Assembly: GCF_000800015.1 (NCBI RefSeq)
Contig: NZ_JUGR01000002.1
Location: forward strand, 62,001-126,000
Source of the DNA: Terriglobus sp. TAA 43
GTDB taxonomy: Bacteria > Acidobacteriota > Terriglobia > Terriglobales > Acidobacteriaceae
Length of the DNA: 64,000 nucleotides
Reading direction: 5' to 3'
Of this stretch, positions 35,827 to 39,080 are shown in pieces (the stretch's first letter is position 1; every line of letters starts with the position of its first letter). The notes beneath the pieces are model-generated. The model ran no database searches, had not been told where the DNA came from, and saw only the letters and a program-made list of their open reading frames with translations. Position numbers and translations under genes: made by a program.

Positions 35827-36091
35827 ACCTCATCCTCCCGCGCCTTCACAGCGTGTCAAATATGGCATCCCAATTCTTCGGCATTTCGTCTGCCCTGCTT
35901 TTCCTCAGGTCAGTAATCGATAGTTCTGTTCGCCGTACAACCTTCATCCCACGAAAGTAATCCACTAATCTTGCGCATCGTAATCAGTGCAAATCTTTGG
36001 CAGTGATGCCGTCCTGTATGGTGGAGTACAGCCTGCAGGTCTTTCCAGGAACGACGGCTCACCATACTGGTGGTGCCAGACCGGGGTTGCA

Positions 36092-36748
36092 ATGGAAGTT
36101 CAGGGCTACGGAATGACACAAAACAATACGACCCCGGTCGCCGGGCACTTCAAGCGGAATCCCCCCATCGCTGGTGAGGCAGACGCTCTGGAGCGCGCAA
36201 AAAACGGCGACCCGGATGCTTTCTCAAAGTTGTATGCGCTGCACAAGCGGCGTGTGTACACCTTATGCCTGCGAATGCTGGGCAATGTTTCTGAGGCAGA
36301 GGACATGACGCAGGAGGCTTTCCTGCACCTCTACCGTAAACTCGGCTCTTTCCGCGGCGAAAGCGCATTCTCCACCTGGCTGCACCGTCTTACGGTGAAC
36401 CTGGTGCTGATGCATCTCCGCAAGAAAGGTCTTCAACTCGTCTCCCTGGAAGAGACCATCAACCCCTCAGAAGAGGACGCGCCCAAGCGTGACTTCGGTT
36501 CGCGCGATCCGCGGCTGTCCGGGTCCGTTGATCGTGTCGCCCTGGAACGCGCCGTGGCCACGCTGCCGCCGGGATACCGCCTGGTCTTCGTGCTCCATGA
36601 CGTTGAGGGATACGAACACAACGAGATTGCCGAGATGCTCGAATGCTCAACCGGCAACAGCAAGTCGCAGCTTCACAAAGCGCGGCTAAAACTGCGGGAA
36701 ATTCTGCGGCAGAATGAACATGCCGCCTTGGTGCAGGAGTCGAAATAA
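36092..36748 (+). CDS. ECF-type RNA polymerase sigma factor (RpoE family)
   Basis: About 218 aa. ATG 36092 or 36113 are both possible starts; 36092 is used. Region 2 is ALHKRRVYTLCLRMLGNVSEAEDMTQEAFLHLYRK with the FSTWLHRLTVNLVLMHLRKK promoter-melting part, and region 4 is ATLPPGYRLVFVLHDVEGYEHNEIAEMLECSTGNSKSQLHKARLKLRE. The two are joined by an acidic linker (SEEDAPKRD). It overlaps the next small gene in TAATG (36746-36750), suggesting coupled translation with a regulatory partner. The regulon is unknown. Confidence 0.92.
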   Translation: MEVQGYGMTQNNTTPVAGHFKRNPPIAGEADALERAKNGDPDAFSKLYALHKRRVYTLCLRMLGNVSEAEDMTQEAFLHLYRKLGSFRGESAFSTWLHRLTVNLVLMHLRKKGLQLVSLEETINPSEEDAPKRDFGSRDPRLSGSVDRVALERAVATLPPGYRLVFVLHDVEGYEHNEIAEMLECSTGNSKSQLHKARLKLREILRQNEHAALVQESK

Positions 36749-37020
36749 TGCCGGAGCATGATGAAAAGCGCTGGACCTGCGAGGAGTTCGAAAAAGCTCT
36801 CCCCGAACTCTTTGAACGCGCAGAAGGCGGTAAGCTGAGCGCCGACCCGCGTTTCGCGGCAATCCTGCGGGACTGTCCGCAGGCCGCTGAACTGGTCCGC
36901 GATCTTGAGTACATCGCTGAAACCGCACGTATGCTGCTGGAACCAGAAGGCGAAGGCCCATCTTCTGATCTCTGGGGCAAAATTGAGCGAGAGATCTCGT
37001 CGAAAGACAGCATCCAGTAA
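36748..37020 (+). CDS. Small soluble partner of the sigma factor, putative anti-sigma factor
   Basis: 90 aa, coupled to the sigma gene by a one-base overlap. It is acidic and helical, with W-T-C-E-E-F-E-K near the N-terminus and CPQAAELVRDLEYIAETARML in the middle. A zinc-type HxxxCxxC motif and a transmembrane segment are both missing, so it is not a standard membrane anti-sigma factor. Position and size suggest a soluble anti-sigma or sigma-modulating protein; the function is inferred from context only. Confidence 0.6.
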   Translation: MPEHDEKRWTCEEFEKALPELFERAEGGKLSADPRFAAILRDCPQAAELVRDLEYIAETARMLLEPEGEGPSSDLWGKIEREISSKDSIQ

Positions 37021-37043
37021 ACCCATTTCAGATACGACAACAG

Positions 37044-37073
37044 CGGCGTCCCAACCGGGGACGCCGTTTTCTT
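37044..37073 (+). terminator. Rho-independent terminator of the sigma operon
   Basis: CGGCGTCCC (37044-37052) pairs with GGGACGCCG (37058-37066), loop AACCG, followed by TTTTCTT. It is 24 bases after the stop of the small partner gene. Confidence 0.85.
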
Positions 37074-37100
37074 TGCCACAAGCGAAATTCCACAAATCGC

Positions 37101-37129
37101 TTGCCCGTCATCTGCCCCGGGTGTATGCT
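37101..37129 (+). promoter_or_regulatory. Promoter of the aroK leader
   Basis: TTGCCC (37101-37106), a 17-bp spacer and TATGCT (37124-37129). A start of transcription near 37136 would leave only about five bases before the leader ATG at 37141, so the leader peptide would be made from an almost leaderless mRNA. Confidence 0.6.
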
Positions 37130-37140
37130 CCTCACCAGAG

Positions 37141-37230
37141 ATGACGCAGTTTACCCAGCCCGCTTCCTTTTGGTACCGCTACTGCTTTACAGGCGCGGCC
37201 CTGGCGGATTCTGCGGTCTTGAAACACTAA
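37141..37230 (+). CDS. Putative aromatic-amino-acid leader peptide upstream of aroK
   Basis: A 29-codon reading frame, ATG to TAA, between the promoter at 37101 and a strong terminator at 37262. Codons 10-16 encode Phe-Trp-Tyr-Arg-Tyr-Cys-Phe, so five of seven residues are aromatic, which is far above background. Shikimate kinase (aroK) begins 100 bp after its stop. This is the layout of a ribosome-mediated attenuator in which starvation for charged aromatic tRNAs stalls the ribosome. No ribosome binding site is visible; a near-leaderless start would explain that. Function inferred, peptide itself seen in sequence. Confidence 0.65.
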   Translation: MTQFTQPASFWYRYCFTGAALADSAVLKH

Positions 37231-37261
37231 GAAACACCTAAGACCAATCTCGATCCTCCTG

Positions 37262-37296
37262 AGCCGCGACCCACAAAGGTCGCGGCTTTCGCTTTT
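37262..37296 (+). terminator. Attenuator terminator between the leader peptide and aroK
   Basis: AGCCGCGACC (37262-37271), loop CACAAA, GGTCGCGGCT (37278-37287), followed by TTCGCTTTT. A competing pairing is possible: TGCGGT (37212-37217) or CGCGGC (37194-37199) with GCCGCG (37263-37268). ACCGC in the aromatic codon run (37175-37179) can in turn pair with GCGGT (37213-37217). That gives the three mutually exclusive stems of a classical attenuator. Confidence 0.75.
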
Positions 37297-37330
37297 CCGA
37301 AACACAACCAGACACAAACCTGAGACCATC

Positions 37331-37894
37331 ATGACAACGCTCGTAGCCGAATCCGCCGTGATCCCACCCCCCGCCACCCTGCTTACCGAACGTGTCGTCC
37401 TTACCGGCTTCATGGGCGCAGGTAAGAGCACCGTAGGTCGCCTCCTCGCCGCTGATCTCGGCTGGGACTTCCTCGATGTCGACGCAGTGATCGAACGCCA
37501 CGCCGGAAACACCATCGAGGAAATCTTCGCCACACACGGCGAGGCCGAATTCCGACGCCGGGAATCCGCCGCCATCGCCCGCAGCCTGGGTGCTCGCAAC
37601 ACTGTCATCGCCCTTGGCGGAGGCGCCCCCGAAGAGGTTACGAACCGCCTTCTGCTGGAGCAGACACCCAACACCACCGTTGTCTTCCTCGACGCCCCTT
37701 TCGCCGTCCTCTTCGACCGTTGCGTGCTCCAGGAAGGTGCCGCCGTCCGTCCGAATCTTCAGGACCCCGACGCTGCCGCAAAACGCTTCCAGCGCCGCAT
37801 CCCGCATTACATCCGCTGCTCGTCGCACCGCATCGTCACAGAAAACCTGTCAATCGAACAAACGGTAGCCGCTATCCGCGCGCAGTTGCTGTAA
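37331..37894 (+). CDS. aroK: Shikimate kinase
   Basis: 187 aa. The P-loop GFMGAGKSTVGRLLA (about 26-40), the DVDAVIERHAG shikimate-binding segment with its Asp pair, the EAEFRRRESAAI region and the glycine-rich GGGAP are all present. It phosphorylates shikimate at position 3 in the aromatic pathway. The first 20 residues are a non-conserved extension. Expression is probably controlled by the leader peptide and terminator upstream. aroDE lies 5.3 kb downstream on the same strand, but not in the same operon. Confidence 0.94.
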   Translation: MTTLVAESAVIPPPATLLTERVVLTGFMGAGKSTVGRLLAADLGWDFLDVDAVIERHAGNTIEEIFATHGEAEFRRRESAAIARSLGARNTVIALGGGAPEEVTNRLLLEQTPNTTVVFLDAPFAVLFDRCVLQEGAAVRPNLQDPDAAAKRFQRRIPHYIRCSSHRIVTENLSIEQTVAAIRAQLL

Positions 37895-37967
37895 ACGTCA
37901 ATCAACGCCAGAGGGATACCCTGCATCAGACGGGAAGCAGTGCATTTATAAACTCCGGAGACCACCT

Positions 37968-39080
37968 CTGACCGATCAGCTTCAGCCCGCGCCACAGTCC
38001 GCCGACATCCAGCGGGCCGATGCAGATACCGGCTTCCCCTCCCGCGACTTCCGCGAGACGCGCCGACATATCGTCTTCACCATCTGTCTGCTGGTGATGC
38101 TTGGACTGTTCTGGAAGATCCGCCACGTCCTGGGCATTGTCTATGTCTCGGGCCTGTTGGCCGTCGTTCTGAACCCGGTGGTGATGAAGATCAGCCATCT
38201 CCAGTTTCGCGGGCGCACCATGCCCAAACCACTCGCCGTAGCCACTCTCGTAGTCGGAATTGGGTTAGGCCTGTTTCTTCTCTTCTGGTTTGGCCTGCCG
38301 CCGGTTCTGAATGATTTCCGCAACTTCCTGACGGACGCTCCCGGACGTCTCCCAGCGCTGATGGCTCGCTTGCAGCGGATTCCCATGGCCGACAAGATCG
38401 GCCTCACCCACTTGAATGACCGCCTTGCCTCCACCATGGAGGCGTTTGCGGGCTACGTATTCAGTTCCCTGCCACAGTGGGCCGAACATCTCCTCGACAT
38501 CCTCACCACCACCATCCTCTGCGTCTATTTCATCCTCGAAGGCTCTGAGGTCTACGAATACTTCCTCTCCCTCGTCGTGCCCAAATCGCGTATTCGATTG
38601 GCGAACACCCTTCAAGTTGCTGAGGAACGGGTTTCACGCTGGCTCATCGGCCAGTTGCTGCTGATGCTGCTGGTGGCCATCTATAGCGTTGTCGTCTTCC
38701 GCGTTCTGAACGTCCGTTATTTCCTTCTGCTGGCCGTCTTGATGGGCCTCACCAACATCATTCCCGTCGCTGGCAACCTCGTAACCATCCTTCTGGTCGC
38801 TCTGATTGCCGCCGCGGACTCGTTCACCAAGGCCGGTCTCGTAATCCTTGCCTACGGCATTTACACCCAACTTGAAAACGCCTTCCTGACACCCAGGATC
38901 ATGAAGTCCAGCGTCGACCTGATGGGCGTCACCGTACTCATTGCCTTGCTCATCGGCACCGCCATCAGCGGCATCCCTGGAGCACTTGTCGCAGTACCCA
39001 GCGCGGCAGTGGTCGTCGTCTTCGCAAACGAATATCTCGTCCAACACGAAGACCCCAACCGCCTCTCCGTACTGGATTAG
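37968..39080 (+). CDS. AI-2E/PerM-family permease with a probable CTG start
   Basis: 370 aa if started at CTG 37968. That codon has CGGAG seven bases upstream, and the reading frame after it has strong coding-type third-position GC. No in-frame ATG, GTG or TTG occurs before GTG 38094, which would remove the first half of membrane helix 1 (HIVFTICLLVMLGLFW). The protein has about eight helices in the pattern of AI-2E transporters/PerM: two paired helices N-terminal, a long soluble segment (about 110-195), and the conserved C-terminal stretch AYGIYTQLENAFLTPRIM. Family members export quorum signal, ions or other solutes; the substrate is not predictable. Confidence 0.85.
   Translation: MTDQLQPAPQSADIQRADADTGFPSRDFRETRRHIVFTICLLVMLGLFWKIRHVLGIVYVSGLLAVVLNPVVMKISHLQFRGRTMPKPLAVATLVVGIGLGLFLLFWFGLPPVLNDFRNFLTDAPGRLPALMARLQRIPMADKIGLTHLNDRLASTMEAFAGYVFSSLPQWAEHLLDILTTTILCVYFILEGSEVYEYFLSLVVPKSRIRLANTLQVAEERVSRWLIGQLLLMLLVAIYSVVVFRVLNVRYFLLLAVLMGLTNIIPVAGNLVTILLVALIAAADSFTKAGLVILAYGIYTQLENAFLTPRIMKSSVDLMGVTVLIALLIGTAISGIPGALVAVPSAAVVVVFANEYLVQHEDPNRLSVLD

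Follow-up and report, generated by a model that had tools for sequence, protein, structure and literature searches.

Amino acid attenuators combine a leader peptide that holds codons for the product of the operon, a set of mutually exclusive RNA pairings, and an intrinsic terminator. The leader described here, which precedes aroK in Terriglobus sp. TAA 43, resembles the E. coli trpL/pheL type in all three respects: product codons, exclusive pairings, and an intrinsic terminator. It differs in several others: leaders of the E. coli type sense one amino acid each (Trp or Phe), whereas the Terriglobus leader would respond to Phe, Tyr and Trp together; arm 1 of its first hairpin is made of the sensor codons themselves; it is predicted to be near-leaderless; it stands before other genes, in another phylum; and it has no Rfam match. 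Excerpts of PMC11802643 name trpL, pheL and pheST as attenuators.

Three other described systems resemble it in single features. The aroR leader of C. glutamicum holds Phe-Tyr-Phe before aroF, and its operon answers to the availability of Phe, not Tyr (PMC4046766, PMC11802643; both in excerpt). The likeness is functional (a DAHP synthase preceded by aromatic codons, as in 47 members of the family described below and in the second copy of the same genome), but aroR is actinobacterial, and the excerpts mention neither a Trp codon nor a companion copy before aroK or trpB. The uORFC-13-1 motif of Acholeplasma, also located before aroF, has been suggested to be a Phe attenuator (PMC8632094, in excerpt); it shares with our leader a predicted Phe-containing frame before a terminator and aroF, but is given there for Acholeplasma and environmental sequences only, with at least one Phe codon and a ribosome binding site, and the excerpt mentions no run of Tyr and Trp codons. 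The trpL RNA of Sinorhizobium meliloti has the leader ATG at its 5' end (PMC7298713, in excerpt), close to the near-leaderless arrangement predicted here, but the system senses Trp only and controls trpE(G). As a class, the mechanism has precedents in trpL, C. glutamicum aroR and the Acholeplasma aroF motif. Among the matches listed for open-access titles and the beginnings of abstracts, which are weak evidence of novelty, there was no description of an aroK leader peptide, of a mixed sensor serving several operons, or of such leaders in Acidobacteria; the excerpts of PMC4833913 and PMC1262725 hold nothing on aroK. Rfam returned four matches up to E 10 for positions 36500-38000 of the window (the whole stretch of 64,000 nt analysed here), all below the gathering score and none to a leader family, and nothing at the gathering score for five relatives; on this basis, the leader families of Rfam (among them Trp, Phe and His) and the T-box were rejected.

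The aroK leader in the window and in its genus

We consider it very likely that the element in front of aroK is a ribosome-mediated transcription attenuator that senses several aromatic amino acids. The evidence comes from its anatomy, conservation, covariation, folding, target genes, and operon-matched codon content, from which we infer the functional steps. The layout that a preliminary description had given for 37101-37296 was confirmed as to sequence, 29-codon frame, five aromatic codons within seven, terminator, and shikimate kinase (Table 1). The promoter likewise lies where it had been placed, and its arrangement is kept in many family leaders, although with 8 of 12 consensus bases it does not reach the cut-off of the promoter scanner (0 sites). 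The best family matches of the aroK product are shikimate kinases, every score lying below the curated cut-offs.

Table 1. Features of the aroK leader region (window positions) and the second leader copy of the same genome
Feature	Position	Strand	Details
Promoter, TTGCCC - 17 nt - TATGCT	37101-37129	+	-35 at 37101-37106, -10 at 37124-37129; ATG 11 nt after the -10 element
Predicted leader peptide frame MTQFTQPASFWYRYCFTGAALADSAVLKH, near-leaderless	37141-37230	+	29 codons, ATG at 37141, stop codon at 37228; stop included in the span
Putative sensor codons, Phe-Trp-Tyr-Arg-Tyr-Cys-Phe	37168-37188	+	five aromatic codons of seven; aromatic positions kept in relatives
Arm 1 of the conserved hairpin 1:2, built of sensor codons	37176-37184	+	kept in relatives; weak in the window
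Predicted alternative partner of arm 2, CCGC	37160-37163	+	directly before the aromatic codons; window fold, probability ~0.8
Arm 2	37190-37199	+	pairs with arm 1 or 37160-37163; CGCGGC at 37194-37199 pairs with arm 3
Arm 3, the 5' arm of the terminator	37261-37271	+	can pair with arm 2 instead, through GCCGCG at 37263-37268
Intrinsic terminator, arms 3:4, T-rich tail	37261-37296	+	stem 37261-37288
aroK, shikimate kinase, proposed regulated gene	37331-37894	+	shikimate kinase models; one match in the genome
Second leader copy	G000:C1:3341486-3341630		peptide MVRSVYFWRFTFRYGATPAAPMEHAL; before trpB

Taken alone, the window terminator is not above chance (2 found vs. 1.8 expected in 2 kb). The combination of an aromatic-run frame and a terminator is, as a scan for it succeeded in 61 of 107 leader regions of the family and in none of the control stretches (107 on the reverse strand, 102 downstream).

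Upstream of the leader lie an ECF sigma factor gene (approximately 36083-36748), a gene for 90 residues (36748-37020) whose product has no NCBIfam or Pfam match, and a terminator-like site (37042-37068). Since the upstream genes end in this site, the leader probably has its own promoter. By eye, a similar gene end stands upstream of aroK in many, but not all, of the relatives in the genus.

The preliminary description had proposed to look for its aromatic run and alternative stems upstream of aroK in relatives, and this comparison found both of them conserved. An aroK match is present in 19 of 19 genomes of the genus group; at two of these loci a contig end limits the upstream sequence to 76 and 178 nt, which leaves 17 usable, and all 17 have a leader peptide, a hairpin whose 5' arm consists of aromatic codons, and a terminator (read from the alignment in L006, L008 and L010, where the script had chosen another stem). 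The frames encode approximately 28-32 residues, and all 17 contain the core F-T-Y-R-Y-W-(W/Y)-P-V-A-A, exactly or in variant form; in most of these leaders TAC CGC TAC TGG forms the 5' arm of the hairpin and is paired with CCAGTAGCGG, and one leader (L020) carries a compensatory double change in the hairpin. The window and two close relatives have Trp at codon 11 and Cys at codon 15, the latter being TGG in most other members of the genus.

Frame, target genes and codon content across the family

Of the 200 genomes of the bacterial family, 94 gave a match to covariance model R1 (E <= 0.01); they represent 41 of 79 genera. We fetched 107 of the 121 matches; the 14 left out are weak (E 8.7e-4 to 0.0092), and three trpB leaders that were fetched, from the window genome and two close relatives, lie in or next to the same range. 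A downstream gene was recognised within 1.5 kb by tblastn in 104 of the 107 leaders, the other three running into contig ends. All 104 readable leaders precede genes of the aromatic pathway: DAHP synthase (47), trpB (26), aroK (22), and chorismate mutase, either alone or together with prephenate dehydratase (9); chorismate mutase or prephenate dehydratase lies ahead of DAHP synthase in 8 of the 47, and the assignments to these two enzymes were checked with Pfam. The preliminary description had dealt with the shikimate kinase step: what it observed is real and most of its reading is supported, but the system extends beyond aroK.

The reading frame is conserved along with the targets. Frame 0 is open with an ATG in 98 of the 107 leaders vs. 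11 and 12 in the other two frames, and contains 5.9 aromatic residues per 14 codons vs. 0.7 and 2.3. One leader among the 107 has no frame by the criteria used; this match before a DAHP synthase gene (G128:C247:8263-8392, L105) lacks an uninterrupted frame and is perhaps a decayed copy. In 64 of 105 leaders the start is preceded, at a distance of 7-12 nt, by the end of a TAnnnT motif (vs. 12 at a control offset), which is accompanied by TTG 16-18 nt further upstream in 53 of 105 (vs. 0 of 105). Shine-Dalgarno-like motifs occur in 10 of 106. The scarcity of such motifs, together with a promoter directly before the start, suggests that many leaders of the family are probably leaderless or nearly so, and the conserved distance from promoter to ATG speaks against a transcription start downstream of 37141. 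The leaders encode Phe by TTT in 261 of 396 cases, the downstream genes by TTT in 221 and by TTC in 467 of 688; this choice of codon may tune stalling.

Within the family, the core Trp codon largely follows the operon. It is present in 48 of 48 trpB/aroK leaders, in 3 of 3 leaders of a DAHP synthase followed by a branch gene, in 24 of 35 leaders of a DAHP synthase without a recognised adjacent branch gene, and in 0 of 17 leaders of operons that start with chorismate mutase or prephenate dehydratase (one of these 17 has a Trp at its far end, outside the core); these counts are not independent by descent, and represent few independent events, as the trpB/aroK leaders come from 9 genera and the branch-first leaders from 5, and the core codons were partly selected by the search itself, whose models were trained on aroK leaders. 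Family f22 departs from this pattern, as three of its five chorismate mutase-first leaders contain Trp. Outside the genus, the core Trp position is not Trp in 41 of 83 frame-0 leaders and is Phe or Tyr in 26 of these 41, by codons that differ from TGG in at least two bases; the residues encoded by arm 2 vary more, with the pairing kept. Codon identity is thus probably the input of the attenuator, as judged from these substitution patterns.

It is possible, though rather unlikely, that the leader responds to one or two aromatic amino acids only (e.g. Tyr or Phe), its other aromatic codons being fortuitous or dictated by the hairpin. A parallel exists in C. glutamicum, where the aroF operon answers to Phe and not to Tyr despite a leader with Phe-Tyr-Phe (PMC11802643, in excerpt), and pairing in the hairpin does constrain the Tyr-Arg-Tyr-Trp codons in many relatives. 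Such a narrow sensor would, however, leave three observations to be accounted for: all three aromatics are found in the core of 48 of 48 trpB/aroK leaders; cores without Trp have Phe or Tyr in its place in the 26 of 41 cases given above; and Trp stands at codon 11, with Cys at codon 15, in the window and two close relatives.

Alternative pairings and a proposed mechanism

Two helices recur in the family leaders, the first hairpin (1:2) and the terminator stem (3:4). In window coordinates, the conserved first hairpin pairs 37176-37184 with 37190-37198, and the core of the conserved antiterminator pairs CGCGGC (37194-37199) with GCCGCG (37263-37268). Of the three mutually exclusive pairings that had been proposed from the window sequence, the latter, listed there as one of two options, and the terminator stem hold, but ACCGC (37175-37179) had been given the wrong partner: its pairing with GCGGT (37213-37217) is possible, but is neither the conserved pairing of the relatives nor the one predicted for the window, and we rejected it.

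In an alignment of 100 leaders to R1, which is fitted to the structure and so favours pairing figures, 93.8% of the cells are standard pairs and 14 of 21 pairs show double changes; 0 of 500 shuffles reach these values, and partners slid out of register pair in 32-49%. An unfitted MAFFT alignment of the 17 genus leaders gave the same two helices. The 2:3 pairing is not part of R1 and was therefore tested separately: arm 2 is the best upstream partner of the terminator 5' arm in 95 of 100 leaders vs. 49 with shuffled arms, a baseline that is high because arm 2 is G-rich, so that only the excess counts. Eight of these 100 leaders come from other families, and arm 2 was picked in 7 of them.

Folding of the window leader agrees with this scheme in part. 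With everything upstream of 37192 covered, the 2:3 antiterminator forms within a structure of -31.1 kcal/mol; downstream of a ribosome at the stop codon, the terminator forms (-21.8). The 1:2 hairpin of the window has two mismatches, reaches -9.8 kcal/mol alone, and has a probability of 0.05 in the leader fold, where arm 2 prefers the alternative partner (Table 1); the basal four pairs of 1:2 are likely in 13 of the 17 genus leaders and unlikely in four, namely L002 (the window), L003, L006 and L016. The minor share of 1:2 in the modelled window fold speaks against the simple picture of an attenuator. The usual footprint of a ribosome extends far enough that one stalled at codons 10-14 is expected to cover 37160-37163 too, and the outcome may be the same; in the lineage of the window the protecting hairpin may, according to the folds, have shifted toward 37160-37163. 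Before arm 4 is made, 2:3 has a probability of 1.00 even without a ribosome, so the untranslated state of the window leader is not clearly predicted; with arm 4 complete, the folds favour 3:4 rather than 2:3, which means that antitermination must be kinetic.

We found the following features of an attenuator: codons for the products of the pathway in a short frame, a terminator between this frame and the gene, and mutually exclusive 2:3 and 3:4 pairings. The 1:2 pairing within the coding run covaries across the family and is the dominant fold in 13 of the 17 leaders of the genus, whereas in the window leader another upstream partner is predicted. By the three features named first, the leader would work like a classical attenuator, and the most likely role of the upstream frame, rich in Phe, Tyr and Trp, would be to switch aromatic genes on when these amino acids are scarce.

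We propose the following sequence of events. As the spacing of the promoter suggests, RNA polymerase would start just ahead of the ATG, and translation of the leader peptide would begin at once. When tRNAs charged with Phe, Trp or Tyr are scarce, the ribosome would halt on codons 10-14 and cover the stretch that pairs with arm 2 from upstream, namely arm 1 or, in the window, 37160-37163. Arm 2, left free, would pair with arm 3 and so prevent the terminator, and aroK would be transcribed, as anatomy, covariation and folding indicate. When the charged tRNAs are plentiful, the ribosome would read on to the stop codon (37228), and transcription would end at the 3:4 terminator before aroK.

The terminated leader RNA or its peptide might also act in trans, besides or instead of this attenuation in cis. 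A near-leaderless frame that ends in a terminator would release a small mRNA, rnTrpL/peTrpL of S. meliloti provides a precedent (PMC7298713, in excerpt), and the arm sequences shared by aroK and trpB leaders make cross-pairing conceivable; we nevertheless regard a trans function as improbable, as residues outside the aromatic core are less conserved and those encoded by arm 2 vary while the pairing is kept. A switch operated by an RNA-binding protein or, in the manner of a T-box, by uncharged tRNA, with a frame that is not the sensor, would suit the stable, conserved hairpins before the terminator, but becomes very improbable in view of the frame (open in 98 of 107), the conserved promoter spacing and codon identity, and the lack of any Rfam family at the gathering score in positions 36500-38000 of the window and in five relatives. 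That the palindrome CCGCTACTGG-N3-CCAGTAGCGG, perfect in several relatives, is the DNA operator of a transcription factor and the frame a product of chance has next to no probability: the palindrome lies within the predicted transcript and varies by compensatory changes, on which we rejected an operator, and by G-U pairs, and aromatic codons occur outside it as well. Chance as the origin of the element was rejected on conservation, on the frame and reverse-strand controls, and on the specificity for target genes.

Spread of the leader over genomes and operons

Searches of the window's own genome with models R1 and R2 gave two clear copies of the leader, the next match having E 0.024. Behind the second copy, trpB and trpA are followed in the same direction by a chorismate mutase gene (35% identity, E 5e-11) and DAHP synthase and then, after a further gene, by prephenate dehydrogenase. 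The genome has no other close DAHP synthase; a second match shows 33% identity. As the second copy stands before trpB, trpA, chorismate mutase and DAHP synthase, the leaders of this genome would define a regulon of at least two operons, whose extent is predicted from gene order. In other genera, related leaders are placed in front of DAHP synthase or chorismate mutase/prephenate dehydratase. The idea of a general aromatic sensor, put forward in the preliminary description for aroK, gains support from this copy before trpBA and DAHP synthase and from the fact that 104 of 104 readable targets are aromatic.

Copies in the family precede the genes of the entry enzyme and of shikimate kinase, trpBA together with DAHP synthase, and genes of the Phe/Tyr branch. 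We think it reasonably probable that the Acidobacteriota possess one family of near-leaderless attenuators that serves as a pathway-wide sensor, its codon mix tuned to each operon and the ribosome integrating three amino acids. If so, many members of a common soil phylum would regulate the aromatic pathway, several operons at once, by one type of leader, and the different codon sets at different branch points would provide a natural experiment on the way in which the specificity of attenuation depends on codon content.

The distribution of the leader is patchy. Among the 200 family genomes with a completeness of at least 90%, the broader model R2 hit 122, a count that is slightly too high because four weak matches that we examined (G037, G176, G100 and G194:C81; E between 1e-5 and 1e-3) resemble gene ends with terminators; 78 of the 200 have no hit. 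A pattern scan of genome contigs yielded 57 stretches, of which 37 hold an R1 leader and 20 were taken as chance. The aromatic-run scanner recognised a leader at 0 of 30 DAHP synthase loci in 20 hit-free genomes of the family and at 2 of 30 in 30 genomes of other families (in each set, 30 of 40 DAHP synthase protein matches had loci and were examined); both figures are lower bounds, as this scanner is insensitive and finds 32 of 47 DAHP synthase, 14 of 22 aroK, 5 of 26 trpB and 10 of 12 other leader regions. Of the 20 leader-free genomes (loci L243-L272), 18 have at least two DAHP synthase matches, in most cases one of approximately 66-78% and one of approximately 46-51% identity to the DAHP synthase of the window genome. 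In other genera, leaders stand mostly before DAHP synthase of the type with approximately 50% identity.

Weak matches of the models proved unreliable. The search of the phylum matched 14 genomes outside the family. Eight of these matches precede operons of DAHP synthase or of chorismate mutase/prephenate dehydratase (Phe/Tyr branch), one of the eight (G238) being cut at a contig end with the start of its peptide beyond the sequence; one (G566) is leader-like without an identified gene, and five consist of a gene end or another kind of stretch with a terminator behind it. The leader peptides outside the family include MRKSFNNFSFYFYFSGKAAEV and MKTDMNTGRQYFYFYYFYLK. By eye, the leader of the latter (family f15, L231 401-534) seems to carry two tandem terminator-like hairpins before DAHP synthase. 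A contig from a bog metagenome titled Verrucomicrobia (L162 4181-4314) contains a strong leader match (94.7 bits), and may be mislabelled or the result of transfer.
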